Positions 1 to 7,727 of a DNA stretch of 7,727 bases are shown here, in pieces. The position numbers and the translations under genes were made by a program. The notes below the pieces were generated by a model, which was not told where the DNA came from, made no database searches, and was given only the letters and a program-made list of their open reading frames with translations. Origin of the DNA: Elusimicrobiota bacterium (GTDB taxonomy: Bacteria; CG03; SLGR01; PWQF01). Within the stretch, counting starts at the first letter, position 1. Every line of letters starts with the position of its first letter. The stretch lies in the NCBI GenBank assembly GCA_003557485.1, contig PWOI01000068.1:1-7727 (forward strand). Direction: 5' to 3'.

Positions 1-494
1 ACTGCGGATGCAGACTCATCTGCCAGCTTTGAGGATATAATCTTCAGTGCAGGCGCAACGGAAAAATCCCCCATCTGCCTTGCGTAGGCAAGGGTTATCG
101 CAAGATCCTGGGCAGAGTAGTCTTTGCCGGTTTCGTAACCCCGCCAGTCGTACCCCTCCTCTTCTCCTACTGAAAGAAGGTTTACGCCCATAGCGGCAAA
201 CCCGCCGGCGAGTGGATAACCTGCAGCAAAGTTCTGGTAAGTTATATCCTCAAACCACTGCGTATAGGAAAGAGAAAACCTCATCTGTCTGCAGTGTGCA
301 AGCCCGGCAGGGTTCCAGTAAATAGAATCAAGCTCGCCGGCAACTCCGCCGTAGGCCTCTCCCATGGCCGAAGCCCTGGCCCCTACGGGAATCCTCAGAA
401 ATGCCGCAGCGCTATCTCCGGCGGCAGAAACAAAACCCGCACTGTTAACCGCTACAGCAACCGCAGATACAATTATTATCAGTTGTTTTTTCAT
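1..494 (-). CDS. PorV/PorQ (UPF0164) family outer-membrane barrel protein, C-terminal part beyond window
   Basis: I translated the minus strand from the ATG at 494-492; 164 codons are visible and the frame is still open at base 1. Residues 1-25 form a signal peptide: Lys-Lys, then a hydrophobic stretch rich in Val, Ile and Ala, then VSAA. The block FLRIPVGARASAMGEAYGG (about residues 32-50), followed by DSIYWNPAGLA (about 56-66), is the N-terminal hallmark of the PorV/PorQ/UPF0164 family, 14-stranded outer-membrane barrels related to FadL. In Bacteroidota, PorV delivers type IX cargo by binding its C-terminal domain; many other phyla have paralogues of unknown role. The ATG shares one base with the TAA stop of the upstream gene (TAATG), so the two are very probably translationally coupled. 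The upstream protein ends in a sorting-like domain, which fits a cargo and carrier pair. Family membership is seen in the sequence; the export role is inferred. The right paralogue (PorV or PorQ) cannot be told from this fragment. Confidence 0.85.
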   Translation of the reverse strand, partial: MKKQLIIIVSAVAVAVNSAGFVSAAGDSAAAFLRIPVGARASAMGEAYGGVAGELDSIYWNPAGLAHCRQMRFSLSYTQWFEDITYQNFAAGYPLAGGFAAMGVNLLSVGEEEGYDWRGYETGKDYSAQDLAITLAYARQMGDFSVAPALKIISSKLADESASA

Positions 495-3400
495 TATTTC
501 ACCACCATAAATTTACCCGTCTTCACCCCGGACACATCCGGACTTGTTACCGTATACACATAGACTCCGGAAGCGACTTTGCCGGCCCCCGGCCAGCTTG
601 CCGCCGCTCCGGACGAGTGTTTAATTTCCTCAACAAACTCGCCTGCAATATTGAATATCGTTATAACCGCATTCTCCGGCAGGTTTCCAAAAGTAACTCC
701 CCCACCTGCAGAAGCGCCGTAGACGCTGTCGCCGGGTTTAAACGGGTTCGGATAGACATAAATGTCTTTCAGTGTGCTTACGGGAATAGATACAACCTTG
801 AAAACCGAAAGCCTGTTGAGGCTAGCCTCTATCCAGTTGTTTTCGGAATCAAGTTCGTAATCTTCAATAAACTCCCACCTGCCTTCACCGACATTCAGCC
901 TTACAACCCTGAAGGTCCGTTTGTCCGGCAGTTCAAAACCCGCCGGCAAGTAGAACCTTAGCTTTATGGACCCGGCTGCCAGGCCGTCATAATCCACCTC
1001 GTTTCCAAAAAGATCAACTATTTTGTAATTATATGCGGCAACCACTTCGTACGATCCTTCTTCCAGTCTGCCGTCGGCAAGCTTTTCAGCGTTTTTCTCA
1101 CCGCCTGTCAATTCAAGCACCATCCCTGCAGTATTATCACCGAACGTCCCTCCGGTAACCCTGAGTTCCGCAATAAGTACATTGTTAACCATATGAGCGC
1201 TGGTGTAATCGTTACCCTTCGGATTGACTGTGTACAAAGTCTTTGTACTAAAACTTATGTGATCCGTTTCAACCTCATCACCATTAAAAGCACTTACCCG
1301 CCAATAATAGTCGGTAAAGTGTTCCAGTCCGGTATCGGTAAATTCAGTAGCTGTAAGATTATCAGCAAAGTTTACACGCACTGCAACTCCGGTTGTGAAG
1401 TTCTCATCCAAAGCACGCTCAACTTTCCACCTGGTATAAGGAGGATTGTCATTATTGCCCCAGCTGACAGTAACCGAAGAAGTATAAACAGAGTCAACTG
1501 AAGGCAAAACCGGAGGATTTGAAAGGGTATAGACATAATCAGGAGGCGTATCTTCACTTTCACCTCCCTTGTACACTCTCAAAAAGCGATAGTATGAGGT
1601 GTTTACTTCAAGACCGCTTTCAATATAGTAGGTCGCGTTTCCTGTTAACTCCGTTGCTTTAGCTCCTTCTACAGGACAATGAATATCTATTCTGGTAGTG
1701 AAATCATCGTTATTTACCCAATTCCATCTTATAGTATCTGTCCCAAGGGCTATATGATTTGCCTTTTCCCAGTCAGGAAATTCTATTCCCAGAAAGATCG
1801 GCTCGTCAAGCAAAGTAACCGATTCCACACCGCTGTGGTTTATCGCCCTTACCCTGGCGTAATACTCAGTATTATTCGGTATAATATCGGTAAAAGCAGC
1901 CATTCCCGCTCCAAAAACCGTAACCGAACTCACTTTATTTTCAGTAAACCCCTGGTCAGTAGCTATATCAACGATCACCACTGTATCTTCCGGGTTGACA
2001 GGCACGGCTGACGTGGACCATACCACTTTAAGGCTGGTTATAAGAACTTCATCCCATTCCGTATCAACTACAGCAGCGGCAAGCGTGACAAAGGCATCAG
2101 ACCACTCGCTTGCTTTTTCGTCGCCGCCATGCCCTAGAACTTTCAGGCGGGCAAAATAAGTAGTATTTGGAGTAATCCCGTCAAGGTTGATGGCCCCATC
2201 AGCATTTAATCCTTCATGACAGTAAAAAGTCCCTTCTGCCGCTTCCTTGTTATACGTTACCTGTAGAAGATAGCGCGTATCATCAGGATTCGGCGGGGAT
2301 GAAGAGTTCCACGGCACGGTTACGCTGCTTACAAATACATCCATTTCAGGCCAGTCCGGCACCGGCATAGAACACAAGGTAACTTCCACCTCGTCAATAA
2401 AAGCAATTGTTATTGCTCCGGCATAACTAACTGCACGTATTTTGCCGTAATAGGTCGTATTTGGAATTAATCCGCTTATAATTGCAGATCCGGCACCCCT
2501 TATTGTCTCCGAACTTCTTACCGTTCCCTCAGCAAAACTGCTGTCGGTTGAAAGCTTTACTATATAAAGTGTCTCTTCGGGATTTTCAATATCGTCCCAA
2601 GCTACCGTTATGCTACTAACGAATATACTGTCCCAGCGCGGCGCGGGGGGAGCGCAACGTAATATATTAGACCCGATAGCAATTGAGGATGTTTCATCCC
2701 CTGCGTGGCTTCTTGCTCTAACCCTGGCGTAATATGTAGTATTGGGGGTCAACGACTCTATAATGACAGAACCTTCGCTGCGCTGCGCCTGCGCGCTGCT
2801 GGTTACAACACCGAAACCGTCATCCTCCGACAACTCAAAAATATAAAGAGTATTGTCAGGGTTATTGTCCATTGGAGTCCAGGTTAAAGTTACACTGCTT
2901 GAATACACATCCCATTCAACATTTACAAGGTCAGGGTCGGCACATCCCGTTACCTTAGGTTGGTCAATGTTAACCGTCGTATAGTCGCCCGCCCAGTTAA
3001 TAGCGCTAAGCCTGCCGTAGTAAGTGGTATTTGGATTAAGACCTGGAACAACTGCAAGAAGATCGGCTTCAGTGCCAATCGGAGCCGGTTTAATATCGCC
3101 CAGGAACCCGGAAGATGTTGACACTTCGGCCAGGTAGAAGGTATCAGGAGGGTTTGGAGGAAACGGCACATCCCAGTCAATCCTTAAGTTATTAATTCTT
3201 TTTTCCGCGTCCCACCTGGGAACAGGTTCGTTTGCCTTGGTTACTGCCGAGAAAGGTTCAGACCAATCAGTTTCATTTCCAGCAGCATCTCTAACCTTTT
3301 CCTTGAAATAGTAAGTAGTATTAGGACTAAGTCCAATATAGGGAGGTCTCATGTTGGTAAAATAGTCATACCCCATTACTGTACCAAAAGCCGGATCCGT

Positions 3401-4510
3401 AGAACCAACACTCATCCAAGGTGTGGAGTGCATTCCGCTACCGGTATCATATGCGGTAAAATATGAAGGAGTTGCAGAGTTTTTTGTAGTTTCTACGGAC
3501 TCTACACCGAAATTAACAGGAGGCGCAGTATCAAATTTAACCTCTATATCCCCGTCGTTGGCATATGCCCAGGCGCTGCTGAAACCGTCCTCATCAATGC
3601 TCCTTACTCTCCAATAATACGACTTGTCTGTCTTAAGTCCTGTAAGTATCTGATGATATGCGGCATCATCGTCCCGATAGTTCGGGTCAGACATAAATTC
3701 GCCTGCAAGAGGAGAATAACCGGGTGAGGTTGACCACTGGATATGAAAACTCATTTCCTTATCAATATCGTAGTTTCGCATTTTAAAATGCATATAAGGA
3801 TTGCTATTTGTCCATGAGCCCATTGAGATCAGATTGGTAATTGAACTCTCTGTTCTACCCTGGAGAAGATTTGAGGGAGACCGGGGCGGGCCGGATACAC
3901 ATCGCAGGGATACGGCCTCGGAGGGGATCCCGTTTGCCTTAACAAAAAGCTTCCAGTAACCCCTTGGAAGATCAGCAGGAACAGTAAAGGATATCTGGGA
4001 GCCGGCATCTGCCCAGTCAAGGGCGTAAACGCTGGGAGTGACATCCAAAAGCATCCCTCCTTCCGACATGGGACCTACGTTACCCGAGGTAAACTTCTGC
4101 AGGTAAACCCGGGGATAGTTTACTTCAGCGCTGTTTGAAGTACCCGAACTTCCTTCAAAATTTGTTTTCAGGCGGGAACCGATAATTGTATATGTCCCCC
4201 CCCGTACTATGTCGGTTACCGCGGCGCCGTTCTTTCTTACTTCGGTTATTGAAGGCTGCAGAGCGGAAGAAACCGCAGCGTAGTCATATTCAGTATAAGA
4301 TACGATATCCGCAGTATCATTGTGCTCGGTCCAGCCTCCGGCAAAAAGTACCCTAGCGTCAAAAAGAAGGGTCCCGGTATGCCAGTGTCTGCCCGTAGAC
4401 ATGGTAGCGGATATTTTTGTAACAGTGCTTAAGTTATGGTCATAAATGTCCGCCGTATCTCCGTGCGGAGACTGATGATGACCGGTTATTATAACTCTGC
4501 CGTCCGGCAT
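494..4510 (-). CDS. Kelch end / E-set / fibronectin type III repeat protein with FlgD/T9SS-like C-terminal domain (3' part of an interrupted gene)
   Basis: An open frame of 1338 codons ending in TAA. Residues 1-75 hold two kelch motifs (MPDGRVIITG and a second around RHWHTGTLL) that continue the array of the upstream ORF. Residues 83-210 resemble the galactose-oxidase C-terminal early-set domain (DUF1929-like): DVTPSVYALDW, then a VPADLPRGYWKLFV segment and NGIPS. About nine fibronectin type III modules follow (about 210-1095), most with the turn L-x-PNTTYY-x-R. A beta-rich domain (about 1096-1250) precedes the terminal domain (about 1253-1338), which has YPNPFKPGD, ITIFNIAGE and ASGVYVYTV. 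Domains ending like this occur at the C-terminus of FlgD-like and type IX cargo proteins. No Shine-Dalgarno precedes the ATG at 4510, and the frame runs without shift into the upstream ORF across one TGA, so this is probably not a true gene start. The protein would be extracellular or surface-bound, with a binding rather than a catalytic role; its ligand is unknown. Confidence 0.85.
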   Translation of the reverse strand: MPDGRVIITGHHQSPHGDTADIYDHNLSTVTKISATMSTGRHWHTGTLLFDARVLFAGGWTEHNDTADIVSYTEYDYAAVSSALQPSITEVRKNGAAVTDIVRGGTYTIIGSRLKTNFEGSSGTSNSAEVNYPRVYLQKFTSGNVGPMSEGGMLLDVTPSVYALDWADAGSQISFTVPADLPRGYWKLFVKANGIPSEAVSLRCVSGPPRSPSNLLQGRTESSITNLISMGSWTNSNPYMHFKMRNYDIDKEMSFHIQWSTSPGYSPLAGEFMSDPNYRDDDAAYHQILTGLKTDKSYYWRVRSIDEDGFSSAWAYANDGDIEVKFDTAPPVNFGVESVETTKNSATPSYFTAYDTGSGMHSTPWMSVGSTDPAFGTVMGYDYFTNMRPPYIGLSPNTTYYFKEKVRDAAGNETDWSEPFSAVTKANEPVPRWDAEKRINNLRIDWDVPFPPNPPDTFYLAEVSTSSGFLGDIKPAPIGTEADLLAVVPGLNPNTTYYGRLSAINWAGDYTTVNIDQPKVTGCADPDLVNVEWDVYSSSVTLTWTPMDNNPDNTLYIFELSEDDGFGVVTSSAQAQRSEGSVIIESLTPNTTYYARVRARSHAGDETSSIAIGSNILRCAPPAPRWDSIFVSSITVAWDDIENPEETLYIVKLSTDSSFAEGTVRSSETIRGAGSAIISGLIPNTTYYGKIRAVSYAGAITIAFIDEVEVTLCSMPVPDWPEMDVFVSSVTVPWNSSSPPNPDDTRYLLQVTYNKEAAEGTFYCHEGLNADGAINLDGITPNTTYFARLKVLGHGGDEKASEWSDAFVTLAAAVVDTEWDEVLITSLKVVWSTSAVPVNPEDTVVIVDIATDQGFTENKVSSVTVFGAGMAAFTDIIPNNTEYYARVRAINHSGVESVTLLDEPIFLGIEFPDWEKANHIALGTDTIRWNWVNNDDFTTRIDIHCPVEGAKATELTGNATYYIESGLEVNTSYYRFLRVYKGGESEDTPPDYVYTLSNPPVLPSVDSVYTSSVTVSWGNNDNPPYTRWKVERALDENFTTGVAVRVNFADNLTATEFTDTGLEHFTDYYWRVSAFNGDEVETDHISFSTKTLYTVNPKGNDYTSAHMVNNVLIAELRVTGGTFGDNTAGMVLELTGGEKNAEKLADGRLEEGSYEVVAAYNYKIVDLFGNEVDYDGLAAGSIKLRFYLPAGFELPDKRTFRVVRLNVGEGRWEFIEDYELDSENNWIEASLNRLSVFKVVSIPVSTLKDIYVYPNPFKPGDSVYGASAGGGVTFGNLPENAVITIFNIAGEFVEEIKHSSGAAASWPGAGKVASGVYVYTVTSPDVSGVKTGKFMVVK
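499..506 (-). promoter_or_regulatory. Ribosome binding site of the PorV-like gene, inside the end of the upstream gene
   Basis: The minus strand reads GGTGGTGA followed by AATA and then the ATG at 494. It matches GGAGGTGA at 7 of 8 bases and lies within the last codons of the FN3 protein. This decides the start at 494 and fits termination-reinitiation coupling at the TAATG overlap. Confidence 0.6.
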
Positions 4511-6283
4511 TAGCGCAGATGTCGGGTATCACCGTTGAGAAATAAGAGACGGGCCCGGGCTGAAGGTATCCGCAACAGGATCATAGATGTAAACCCTCTG
4601 GTTATCCATTCCTCCTGCAAGGACTACTTTTCCGTCCGCCAGAAGAGTGGCGGTGTGGTGTTGCATCAGAGTAGGTATTGCTCCGGCAGGGCTAAATTCC
4701 CCTGTTTCATAACAGAATAAATCCGAACTTGTATTTGCCCCAAAATTGCCCACACCACCTGCCAGAAGGACTTTTCCATTCATAAGAAGCGTAGCGGTAT
4801 GTTCTGACCGGGAATCGCTCATAAGATTTTCTACAGGAGTAAATTTTTCCGTATCCGGATCAAATATTTCAGCTGTATCGGAACGTGTATTTAATGCTAT
4901 TTCACCGCCGGCTATAAGAACTCTACCATCAGGAAGAAGGGTTGCTGTATGGAAGGAGCGCGGAGAAGACATAGTTGATGTAAGAACCCGGGAGTCCCTG
5001 GTGTCCAGGTTGTAGATTTCCGCTGTATTAAGCCGGCCGGCGGGGGATTCGCCGCCTGTTATAAGAATATTGTTTTCCATCAGTAATGTAGCGGTATGAA
5101 AGGCCCTTGAGGATACAAGGTTCCCGTAACTGGAATCAAAACTGCCGGAAGAGGGATCAAAAACCTCAACAGATGACAGTCCATCTCCACCTGAGAGAAA
5201 AACTTTTCCATCCGGCAGCAATGTATGTGAATGCCCTAATCTTCCCGTCTCCATTGAGTCGCCCCCGTCAACTGCTTCAAAAACTCCTCCTGAGGGCTGC
5301 AGTATTTCCGCATAATTAAGTCCGCTCGTATTGTCGCTGTTCCTGCCCGAGCAGGCAAAAACCTGGCCGCCGGGAAGCAGCACAGCCGAAAAACCTCTCC
5401 TTTCAAAATTCATATCAGGTCCTGCAGAAAATAAACCGCTTGAAGGATCATATATCTCGGTACTTTTAAAAGTAACTCCTCCCGTAGCTATATATCCGCC
5501 TGCCAGAAGTACTTTTCCGTCAGGCAGCAGTGTGGCCGTGTGATAAGCCCTTGTTGACACCAAAACTCCTGTATATGTGAAAGTTCCTTCCCCAACGCTA
5601 TACAGTTCTGCAGTATTTGTATATGTATTGGATGCCGTTCTACCCCCCGCGATCAAAATATCACCATCTGGAAGGAGGGTCGCGGTATGGTTGTAACGAG
5701 TGGAGTTCAAGTCACCGTTCGTAAGGGTAAATGAGTTATCGGAAGGGTTAAAAATTTCTGCGTCACTGCCTCCCGTCCCTCTGCCCCCTGCAAGCAAGAC
5801 AACTCCATTAGATGTGAGAGTTGCTGTATGTTCGCATCTTGATTTTTGCATAGTATGAGACGTTAGAACTTTGGTTGCATGGTTATATACCCTCGCTGAA
5901 CTTTGAAAAACCCCGGAACTTATCCCACCGGCAATTAGAACATTGCCATTAGGCAAAAGGGTCGCTGTATGGTTTGCTCTTGAACCAAAACCGGTAACTT
6001 TTGTTATGCTGTTATCGGATGGATCAAATATGTCTGCCTCATCCAGGTTTTCAGGAGATGCTATCAAACTGTAATATCCGCAGCCAAGCAGAACCGTTCC
6101 GTCAGGAAGAAGGGTAGCGGTATGGCCATACCTTACAGTACTCATTTCACCGGCTGCCGTAAAAGAATTTTCAGCAGGATCGTATATTATCAGGTCATCC
6201 AATATTTCATCAAGTCGTCTCCCCCCTGCGATAAGTACTTTACCATTAGGAAGAAGAGTGACTGTATGTTCATACCTTTGAAG
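4336..6283 (-). repeat. Kelch-encoding repeat array, 14 units of about 145-150 bases
   Basis: On the plus strand a degenerate core resembling GAAGGGTAGCGGTATG recurs near 6255, 6112, 5962, 5820, 5678, 5530, 5220, 5085, 4940, 4788 and 4648, with weaker copies near 5385, 4505 and 4370. It encodes the HTATLLPDG part of each motif. The array runs through both ORFs on either side of the TGA. Similarity is strongest over the conserved strand and lost in the loops, as expected of a diverged protein repeat rather than a recent tandem DNA expansion. Confidence 0.75.
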
Positions 6284-6391
6284 CCCGCTTACAAAACCTG
6301 AATCAAACCAGTCAGCCGAATAGGCACTTTTTATCTCCCCCATCACAACCACACAAACCAACATCAAACCTATCATGCAGATCTTCTTCAT
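4529..6391 (-). CDS. Secreted kelch-repeat (galactose-oxidase-like propeller) protein (5' part of an interrupted gene)
   Basis: About 620 residues starting MKKICMIGLMLVC, a Sec signal peptide with a likely cut after SAYSA (near residue 26). No lipobox is visible. The rest is twelve kelch motifs at about 48-50 residue spacing, each reading R-x-x-HTATLLPDGKVLLAGG followed by a variable loop and A-E-I-[YF]-[DN]-P. The ATG at 6391 lies 8 bases after AAGGAG; a GTG at 6394 directly before it lies 5 bases after and is an equally possible start, adding one residue. Translation ends at TGA (4531-4529) in the middle of the thirteenth motif, after SLISQR. This would leave an incomplete second propeller and no surface-attachment domain. 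The same frame resumes at once, so the piece is best seen as the front of a longer protein. Kelch propellers bind proteins or sugars, or carry a copper radical site in galactose and glyoxal oxidases; no function can be assigned here. Confidence 0.85.
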   Translation of the reverse strand: MKKICMIGLMLVCVVVMGEIKSAYSADWFDSGFVSGLQRYEHTVTLLPNGKVLIAGGRRLDEILDDLIIYDPAENSFTAAGEMSTVRYGHTATLLPDGTVLLGCGYYSLIASPENLDEADIFDPSDNSITKVTGFGSRANHTATLLPNGNVLIAGGISSGVFQSSARVYNHATKVLTSHTMQKSRCEHTATLTSNGVVLLAGGRGTGGSDAEIFNPSDNSFTLTNGDLNSTRYNHTATLLPDGDILIAGGRTASNTYTNTAELYSVGEGTFTYTGVLVSTRAYHTATLLPDGKVLLAGGYIATGGVTFKSTEIYDPSSGLFSAGPDMNFERRGFSAVLLPGGQVFACSGRNSDNTSGLNYAEILQPSGGVFEAVDGGDSMETGRLGHSHTLLPDGKVFLSGGDGLSSVEVFDPSSGSFDSSYGNLVSSRAFHTATLLMENNILITGGESPAGRLNTAEIYNLDTRDSRVLTSTMSSPRSFHTATLLPDGRVLIAGGEIALNTRSDTAEIFDPDTEKFTPVENLMSDSRSEHTATLLMNGKVLLAGGVGNFGANTSSDLFCYETGEFSPAGAIPTLMQHHTATLLADGKVVLAGGMDNQRVYIYDPVADTFSPGPSLISQR

Positions 6392-6399
6392 CACGTTTT

Positions 6400-6405
6400 C
6401 TCCTT
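6400..6405 (-). promoter_or_regulatory. Ribosome binding site of the kelch gene
   Basis: The minus strand reads AAGGAG, then AAAAC, then GTG ATG AAG. Spacing is 5 bases to the GTG and 8 bases to the ATG. The ATG at 6391 is slightly favoured; the choice changes one residue only. Confidence 0.75.
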
Positions 6406-6439
6406 CGGATATAACAAAGTTCCTTAAACTTTCAGTTCT

Positions 6440-6468
6440 ATATTAAAATGTCTTTTTCTGTATGTCAG
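6440..6468 (-). promoter_or_regulatory. Candidate proximal promoter of the kelch/FN3/PorV operon
   Basis: On the minus strand, CTGACA (6468-6463; 5 of 6 with TTGACA) is followed after exactly 17 bases by TAATAT (6445-6440; 4 of 6 with TATAAT). The start would be near 6433, giving a leader of about 40 bases. The -35 element overlaps the CRP-like palindrome, as at class II activated promoters, which often have weak core elements. This is a motif match only. Confidence 0.4.
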
Positions 6469-6482
6469 TGACCTGGGTCACA
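6467..6482. promoter_or_regulatory. CRP/FNR-family operator-like palindrome
   Basis: The minus strand reads TGTGACCCAGGTCACT and the plus strand AGTGACCTGGGTCACA, matching TGTGA-N6-TCACA at 9 of 10 fixed bases, with perfect 6-base arms (GTGACC/GGTCAC). Its centre (6474.5) is about 41.5 bases upstream of the start predicted from the proximal promoter, the standard position for a class II activator. The motif is seen; the identity of the regulator (CRP, FNR, HcpR or another member) is not shown by the window. Confidence 0.5.
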
Positions 6483-6485
6483 CTT

Positions 6486-6549
6486 AAACTGCAACTGGCG
6501 TATTTAGGCGGGAACGCCTGCCGGGCCTAGGTATTTCAGTACGCAGTTT
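6486..6549. repeat. 64-base imperfect inverted repeat in the divergent regulatory region
   Basis: The outer arms are AAACTGC (6486-6492) and GCAGTTT (6543-6549). Inside them ACTG (6494-6497) pairs with CAGT (6537-6540), and TAGGC (6505-6509) pairs with GCCTA (6525-6529). A compact inner hairpin, AGGCG-GGAA-CGCCT (6506-6519), uses bases of the TAGGC arm, so inner and outer forms exclude each other. If the distal promoter at 6572-6600 is used, the whole element lies in the operon's 5' leader. It could be a leader RNA structure, a protein site or a dispersed palindromic element. A terminator is less likely: on the minus strand no T tract follows, and on the plus strand there is no gene upstream to end. 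Confidence 0.5.
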
Positions 6550-6571
6550 TAATTTTTAAAAAACAATTTTT

Positions 6572-6600
6572 ATTAAAATTTATTTTCCCTCTAATGTCAA
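6572..6600 (-). promoter_or_regulatory. Candidate distal promoter of the kelch/FN3/PorV operon
   Basis: The minus strand has a perfect TTGACA (6600-6595), a 17-base spacer and TTTAAT (6577-6572; 5 of 6). It is the best sigma-70-type match in the region. The start would be near 6566, giving a leader of about 170 bases that includes the 64-base inverted repeat and the CRP-like palindrome. The surrounding AT-rich tract (6546-6590) makes chance matches likelier. Confidence 0.45.
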
Positions 6601-6613
6601 GCTTTTTCAGTTC

Positions 6614-6633
6614 AACCATTGTGAAAAATGGTT
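6614..6633. repeat. Short perfect inverted repeat between the divergent promoters
   Basis: AACCATT (6614-6620), a 6-base loop, then AATGGTT (6627-6633), followed on the plus strand by T-rich sequence. It lies between the distal minus-strand promoter and the plus-strand promoter. It could be an operator for one or both; as a plus-strand terminator it would have no gene to end. The arms are short and AT-rich, so chance is possible. Confidence 0.25.
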
Positions 6634-6658
6634 TTTGCCGTTTTTTTGTTCATACCCC

Positions 6659-6687
6659 TTGTAAGAGGCAGCTTTTTTGATTATAGT
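6659..6687 (+). promoter_or_regulatory. Candidate promoter of the GAF-HD-GYP gene
   Basis: TTGTAA (6659-6664; 4 of 6) is followed after 17 bases by TATAGT (6682-6687; 5 of 6). Transcription would start near 6694, about 30 bases before the ATG at 6725. A perfect TATAAT at 6687-6692 overlaps this box but has no -35 match at 16-18 bases. Confidence 0.4.
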
Positions 6688-6724
6688 ATAATAATATGAA
6701 AAAAAGCAGCTTCAATAACATTTT

Positions 6725-7727
6725 ATGGATGACATAAAACGTTACAAAGAGGAAAACCGCAAGCTTGCCGAATGGAAGCGAAAGCTTTCTCTTATTCTTG
6801 AGTATTCCGGAAGGATATCCGCTTCTTCAGACCTTGCCGATATACTTAAGGTTATTACCAACGAAACACGGGATGTTTTACAGACAGACCGGTGCACGGT
6901 ATTCCTGCTCGATAAAAGTAGAAACGAACTCTACAGCTGGGTCGCTCACGGGCTGGGCCGAAAAAAAATAAGGTTCCCCGCAAATACCGGACTTGCCGGG
7001 GCCGCTGCCACCAATGGAAAAACAATTAATGTCAAAGACGCCTACAGCGACCGGAGGTTTAACCCTGAAATAGACCAGAAAACCGGGTACTACACAAAAT
7101 CAATATTATGCGTACCTATGCGTAATCAATTAGGACAGGTTATCGGTGTTTTTCAGGTACTCAACAAAAAAGACGGTTACTTTACTAAACAGGACGAAGA
7201 GATGCTCAGGCTTCTCTCCAGCCAGGCCTCCGGTATTATTGAGAATGCCATGCTTTACGAAGAGATGAAGAAATCCTTTAAATCATTTATAAACACTCTT
7301 GCAGAGACCGTTGACGCCAGGGATCCGCTTACCGCCGGGCACTCGTCGCGCGTATGCGCCTACTCCCTTCTTATAGCCGACAGGATGGGTTACAGCGACA
7401 AGGACAGGGAAAGGCTCCAGTACGCAGCGCTTCTTCATGACCTTGGAAAGATAGGAGTAAAAGAAGCGGTCCTGACAAAACCAGGACGGCTTGACAGTGA
7501 CGAATCCACTCATATACAGACACACACAGCAGTCACAAGAAAAATACTGGAACGCACATATTTTCAGCACGGCTTCAGGAATATACCCATTATCGCTTCT
7601 TCTCACCACGAAAACGTGGACGGCACGGGATACCCGCAAAAGCTTAGGGGAGAAGAAATACCGGAAATATCACGAATAATGGCTGTAGCCGACGTATTTG
7701 ACGCCCTTACCTATAAACGGCATTACA
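6725..7727 (+). CDS. GAF domain / HD-GYP domain protein, probable cyclic-di-GMP phosphodiesterase, 3' end beyond window
   Basis: 334 codons are visible and the frame is open at the right edge. Residues 1-25 are charged and probably helical. Residues about 26-178 form a GAF domain with the NKFDE signature (N147-K148, F153, D157-E158), typical of GAFs that bind cAMP or cGMP in phosphodiesterases and cyanobacterial adenylate cyclases. Residues about 190-334 are an HD-GYP domain: H206 with R209, HDLGKIG (238-244), H267, HHENVDGTGYP (294-304) and ADVFDALT (322-329). The metal ligands and the GYP motif are intact, so hydrolysis of cyclic di-GMP is the expected activity. No membrane segment is seen, so it is probably cytoplasmic. 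The start is fixed by an in-frame TAA at 6716-6718; ATG 6725 is the first start after it. There is no Shine-Dalgarno. Only the last few tens of HD-GYP residues or any later domain are missing. It is transcribed away from the kelch operon. Confidence 0.9.
   Translation, partial: MDDIKRYKEENRKLAEWKRKLSLILEYSGRISASSDLADILKVITNETRDVLQTDRCTVFLLDKSRNELYSWVAHGLGRKKIRFPANTGLAGAAATNGKTINVKDAYSDRRFNPEIDQKTGYYTKSILCVPMRNQLGQVIGVFQVLNKKDGYFTKQDEEMLRLLSSQASGIIENAMLYEEMKKSFKSFINTLAETVDARDPLTAGHSSRVCAYSLLIADRMGYSDKDRERLQYAALLHDLGKIGVKEAVLTKPGRLDSDESTHIQTHTAVTRKILERTYFQHGFRNIPIIASSHHENVDGTGYPQKLRGEEIPEISRIMAVADVFDALTYKRHY

Follow-up and report, generated by a model that had tools for sequence, protein, structure and literature searches.

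A single in-frame TGA in a kelch-repeat surface-protein gene of an Elusimicrobiota draft genome, read against other stray stops in the same assembly

The closest described relatives of the gene considered here, at the level of enzymes, are the copper radical oxidases of family AA5, galactose oxidase and GlxA, which likewise contain a kelch propeller and whose sequence match runs across the in-frame TGA that interrupts the gene (GlxA 4unm, E 2.6e-14; galactose oxidase 1gof, E 4.2e-12). Unlike these oxidases, the encoded protein combines 14 kelch motifs with FN3 domains and a type IX secretion system (T9SS) tail, and GO-like_E_set is not among its significant Pfam matches; the likeness would lie at the level of propeller sequence. 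The protein also resembles cargo of type IX secretion, in that it has a signal peptide (called by eye), a large repeat ectodomain, a C terminus similar to Por_Secre_tail and an adjoining gene of the PorV/PorQ family, but its tail falls below the Pfam cut-off and the cargo role is a predicted one.

As for the stop itself, recent strain-level nonsense pseudogenes also carry one premature stop in a frame that is otherwise intact, but the draft genome studied here has, in addition, a non-viable stop in its only gyrB gene. In uncurated draft genomes, local assembly errors have been found to corrupt coding sequences, including that of a repeat-rich gene (PMC7111523). The present case is similar to those errors in several respects, as the lesions are isolated in otherwise intact genes, one of them repeat-rich, and contigs end at branch points. 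On the evidence set out below, the TGA is probably (at about 0.62) a consensus or assembly error, or the co-assembled sequence of a minor or dead strain.

Layout of the interrupted kelch gene

The window analysed is the entire 7,727-bp contig C106 of draft genome G000 (2.07 Mb, 212 contigs, 86.6% complete). A single minus-strand frame extends from 6394 to 494, and its sole internal stop is TGA 4531-4529, in the codon context CAA CGG TGA TAC CCG ACA. The features of the window are as follows.

6395-6838, no strand assigned: intergenic stretch together with the beginning of the divergent GAF/HD-GYP gene, common to contig C4
4532-6394, minus strand: 5' part of the kelch gene, with signal peptide and kelch motifs 1-12; AAGGAG precedes GTG 6394/ATG 6391
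4529-4531, minus strand: in-frame TGA breaking the kelch-gene frame, from reading of the sequence
4508-4510, minus strand: ATG proposed as a reinitiation start, without a Shine-Dalgarno sequence; encodes the Met of LMPDG, which the uninterrupted C4 copy shares
494-4510, minus strand: 3' part of the kelch gene, from within motif 13 through motif 14 and FN3 domains to a C-terminal T9SS type A sorting domain
497-840, minus strand: Por_Secre_tail-like sorting domain, approximate limits (TIGR04183)
3-494, minus strand: PorV/PorQ-family gene, 3' of the kelch gene and truncated by the contig end; its ATG overlaps the kelch-gene stop (TAATG)

The upstream ORF starts at GTG 6394 or ATG 6391 behind the Shine-Dalgarno sequence AAGGAG and ends at the TGA, and the downstream ORF runs in the same frame from ATG 4510, six sense codons past the TGA, to TAA 496-494. 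The length of open frame around the TGA, 637 codons on one side and 1,344 on the other, is not due to chance, and in a 494-kb sample the two ORFs are by far the largest same-frame pair without a proper downstream start. The stop falls in motif 13 of the 14 kelch motifs, 12 of which were recovered with a regular expression and two by eye, and the kelch spacing is unaltered across it (LISQR-stop-YPTSALMPDGRVIITG compared with, for example, MSSPRSFHTATLLPDGRVLIAG). The preliminary description of this DNA had proposed one frame split by a TGA, with the thirteenth motif spanning the stop at unchanged spacing, and both points are borne out by the frame and by the motif alignment.

Because spacing is kept over the TGA, ATG 4510 lacks a Shine-Dalgarno sequence, as had been noted before, and Met 4510 is a residue of the motif, the ORFs represent one gene and not two; neither of the marks of a two-gene arrangement, a ribosome site belonging to 4510 and a domain boundary at the TGA, was found. 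The same evidence bears on reinitiation at ATG 4510, which would yield two proteins from the interrupted message. The ATG is in frame and 18 bases past the TGA, but with no Shine-Dalgarno sequence before it, with its Met conserved in the motif and kept in the uninterrupted copy, and with a second product that would begin within a blade and have no signal peptide, reinitiation is highly improbable.

Uninterrupted, this would be a single gene of about 1,965 codons, and its predicted product a T9SS-type surface protein in which 14 kelch motifs are followed by FN3 domains and a sorting tail. The C-terminal tail scores 27.3 bits against TIGR04183 (NCBIfam, T9SS type A sorting domain; cut-off 23) and 21.6 against Pfam PF18962, below the cut-off of 27. 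The second propeller was modelled with AlphaFold at moderate confidence (mean pLDDT 64.9; below 50 in the last quarter), and the model would put the stop site on the margin of a predicted strand. At the far end of the gene, the sequence TAATG at 492-496 on the minus strand overlaps the kelch-gene stop with the start of the PorV/PorQ-family gene, an arrangement that suggests translational coupling of a putative cargo with an outer-membrane component of the T9SS.

A second version of the locus and the residue at the stop

Contig C4 of the same draft (3,543 bp) carries a kelch gene that is uninterrupted and open to the contig end. The C4 gene and the window gene are 46-53% identical in the second propeller, their signal peptides are nearly identical, and the Met and the motif around the stop site are kept in the C4 copy. 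Upstream, the two contigs are 88-89% identical over the intergenic region and on into the GAF/HD-GYP gene, which is divergently oriented, the similar upstream and signal-peptide stretch covering 6308-6838 of the window and 3009-3543 of L020 (G000:C4), and the final 118 bp of this region are identical and join the two contigs. Exact overlaps of about 118-121 bp are common to several contig ends, the pattern to be expected of a branching assembly graph. An ordinary paralogue was considered for C4 and rejected, since the flank shows an alternative version of the window locus; C4 is either such a version, contributed by a co-binned strain, or else another copy.

In G001, a genome of the same genus, the HD-GYP gene is kept and a transposase-like gene takes the place of the kelch gene. 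Transposase-like genes adjoin the HD-GYP gene there at 2634-3863 and 4028-4330 of L232 (G001:C8). No match to the kelch gene was found in the other searched genomes of the genus and order, and a contig scan for relatives returned one distant planctomycete kelch protein. With a promoter region and signal peptide that are nearly unchanged between the window and C4, and an ectodomain that has diverged to about half identity, the kelch locus looks like a strain-variable surface-protein locus, to judge from the sequences compared.

The TGA had been described as a probable Trp codon, with RWYPT given as a common form of this segment in oxidase propellers. Alignment of homologues at this residue, the check proposed with that description, gives Asp (GAT) in the uninterrupted C4 copy. 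The search that used W at the stop was redone with X to avoid circularity, and with X in place the aligned residue is Gly in galactose oxidase and Arg in the best-aligned GlxA blade. A different GlxA blade does carry RWYPT, with Trp in the stop slot, and to that extent the description was right, but this form does not extend to the best-aligned blade or to galactose oxidase. Inference of Trp from internal repeats was tried and discarded, as Trp occupies the slot in none of the other script-matched kelch motifs of the window and C4 genes. Trp at the stop is not predictable, and the proposed Trp codon is not supported.

Decoding of UGA

Judged from the decoding genes and from stop usage, UGA is an ordinary stop codon in G000. 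The prfB gene is present with SPF and GGQ motifs intact, and is preceded by the classical autoregulatory UGA frameshift site AGGGGGTATCTTTGA (L024, G000:C145, just upstream of 1501). In the 494-kb sample, 338 long frames, some of which are shadow frames, end in TGA (128), TAA (175) or TAG (35). The 40 tRNAs found in this 86.6% complete genome include tRNA-Trp with the anticodon CCA only and none with the anticodon UCA, and all Trp codons of the kelch gene are TGG (32/32). A search of G000 for selB gave a best score of 193 bits, below the cut-off of 242, and the sole match of a tRNA-Sec search is tRNA-Leu(UAA). Selenocysteine, a suppressor tRNA and global recoding were each searched for and not found. 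The earlier judgement that global recoding is unlikely, TGG being the Trp codon elsewhere, holds with a normal prfB, TGA as a common terminator and a single tRNA-Trp. Recoding of UGA, to Trp genome-wide or to selenocysteine locally, has on its side the TGA itself and the one GlxA blade with Trp in the stop slot, but against prfB with its canonical frameshift, the many frames that end in TGA, the CCA-only tRNA-Trp with TGG throughout and the selB and tRNA-Sec results, it is largely refuted already and scarcely credible.

Programmed or leaky readthrough of UGA would produce a short form and a long form, the latter with the sorting domain, and such a switch had been put forward in the preliminary description. 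It would agree with a frame that is wholly open past the TGA, and with the TAATG overlap of the PorV-family gene at the far end, where translation is presumably expected to arrive. U next to UGA is a strong termination context, and U is the base that follows this TGA. The stop is not kept in C4, the only close homologue available, which has a sense codon for Asp; the UCA anticodon is missing from the 40 tRNAs; and the short form would terminate within a blade. A stimulatory or recoding structure 3' of the TGA was sought and rejected, as the RNA fold there is unremarkable (z -1.25) and 31 of 200 shuffled sequences did as well. Readthrough at this site is very unlikely, and the switch, which has neither a homologue with the stop nor a suppressor tRNA nor a significant RNA structure to support it, is also unnecessary because other isolated in-frame stops occur in G000, including one in its only gyrB. 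Among the explanations listed at the outset, sequence error and a recent nonsense mutation now lead, and readthrough and reinitiation have receded.

Stray stops in the draft and the origin of the TGA

A survey for in-frame stops that are flanked on either side by coding signal and lack a plausible start covered 694 kb of G000, 689 kb of G002 (same order) and 112 kb of G001 (same genus), with candidates sorted by eye. Beyond the window gene, the G000 sample contains three clear cases.

G000:C121:14937 (L079:14937), plus strand: in-frame TAA in gyrB, with a full-length TIGR01059/NF011501 match through the stop
G000:C94:6221 (L070:6221), plus strand: in-frame TGA in lpxD, with a full-length TIGR01853 match through the stop
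G000:C170:5237 (L088:5237), plus strand: in-frame TGA in a GalE-like epimerase gene, with one family model matched full length through the stop

PDB relatives were also matched for lpxD and the epimerase. At each of the three sites, relatives, among them the same genus, carry a sense codon. The gyrB site is Glu or Gln, Arg is found at the epimerase site in 9/9 aligned relatives, and the lpxD site is mostly Glu or Asp, the same-genus ortholog being intact. A TAG at L144:982 had no family match and was left out of the count. In G001, a PorV-like frame with a TGA (L192:1867, minus strand) and an SDR-family frame with a TAA (L204:2665, plus strand) are candidate single-stop genes.

The gyrB case carries the argument. 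It is an essential gene, and the copy on C121 is the only one found in G000, so its TAA cannot be the state of any growing cell. The same type of lesion as in the window is thus found in a gene that does not tolerate it, and the in-frame stops of the G000 draft cannot all be real. No clear case was seen by eye in the 689 kb of G002, and the difference, 4 against 0 in equal samples (one-sided P about 0.06), is suggestive only. The four G000 stops correspond to about 1.8e-4 substitutions per base, a plausible figure for a draft. The base changes at the stop sites belong to no single class, and a single damage process therefore does not account for them. Cytosine deamination as a shared source was rejected, because the five nearest relatives have Glu (GAA/GAG) at the gyrB site and the sites in lpxD and the epimerase gene do not fit one class of change.

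Error is the preferred reading of the window TGA, since the draft has stops that cannot all be real, the kelch locus varies among strains and is rich in repeats, and C4 provides a version without the stop. Given a continuous frame, an uninterrupted C4 copy, normal UGA apparatus and further stray stops that include the only gyrB, the TGA would be a lone base error in the metagenome consensus, introduced by sequencing or local assembly or taken from a minor or dead strain; it would share its origin with the other stray stops of G000, and would most likely be absent from the functional gene of the living organism. Against this reading stand the weak statistics of the genome comparison, with candidates judged by eye, the want of a common base-change class, and the fact that a nonsense mutation, if real, could be tolerated in a surface gene.

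A genuine recent nonsense mutation, by which the sampled strain would have a truncated but not further decayed surface gene, is possible though unlikely. A single lesion in about 1,965 codons is what a recent event would leave, and the gene looks accessory, being unmatched in the searched genomes of the genus and order and replaced by a transposase-like gene at a locus that varies among strains; the two candidate broken genes of G001 point the same way. The stop in the only gyrB counts against it, in that not all in-frame stops of G000 are real. If the allele is nonetheless real, its product would be without the last two blades, the FN3 domains and the sorting tail. It is extremely improbable that the genus, through unusually leaky termination, tolerates scattered in-frame TAA and TGA stops, both read by RF2, in surface genes and essential genes alike. 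All four G000 stops and both G001 candidates are TAA or TGA and none is TAG, but nothing looks abnormal in RF2 or its autoregulatory frameshift, and a suppressor tRNA was not found; were it true, the surface protein would exist in a short form together with a rare full-length anchored form.

For the preferred reading, that of an error or of minor-strain sequence, one search for gyrB sufficed to alter the interpretation of the window TGA. A lone stop in a draft genome is thus first to be checked against the essential genes of the same assembly, before readthrough or recoding is considered. The more durable observation than the stop is that two versions of the locus occur in one draft, with a 5' end that is almost unchanged and an ectodomain that has strongly diverged.
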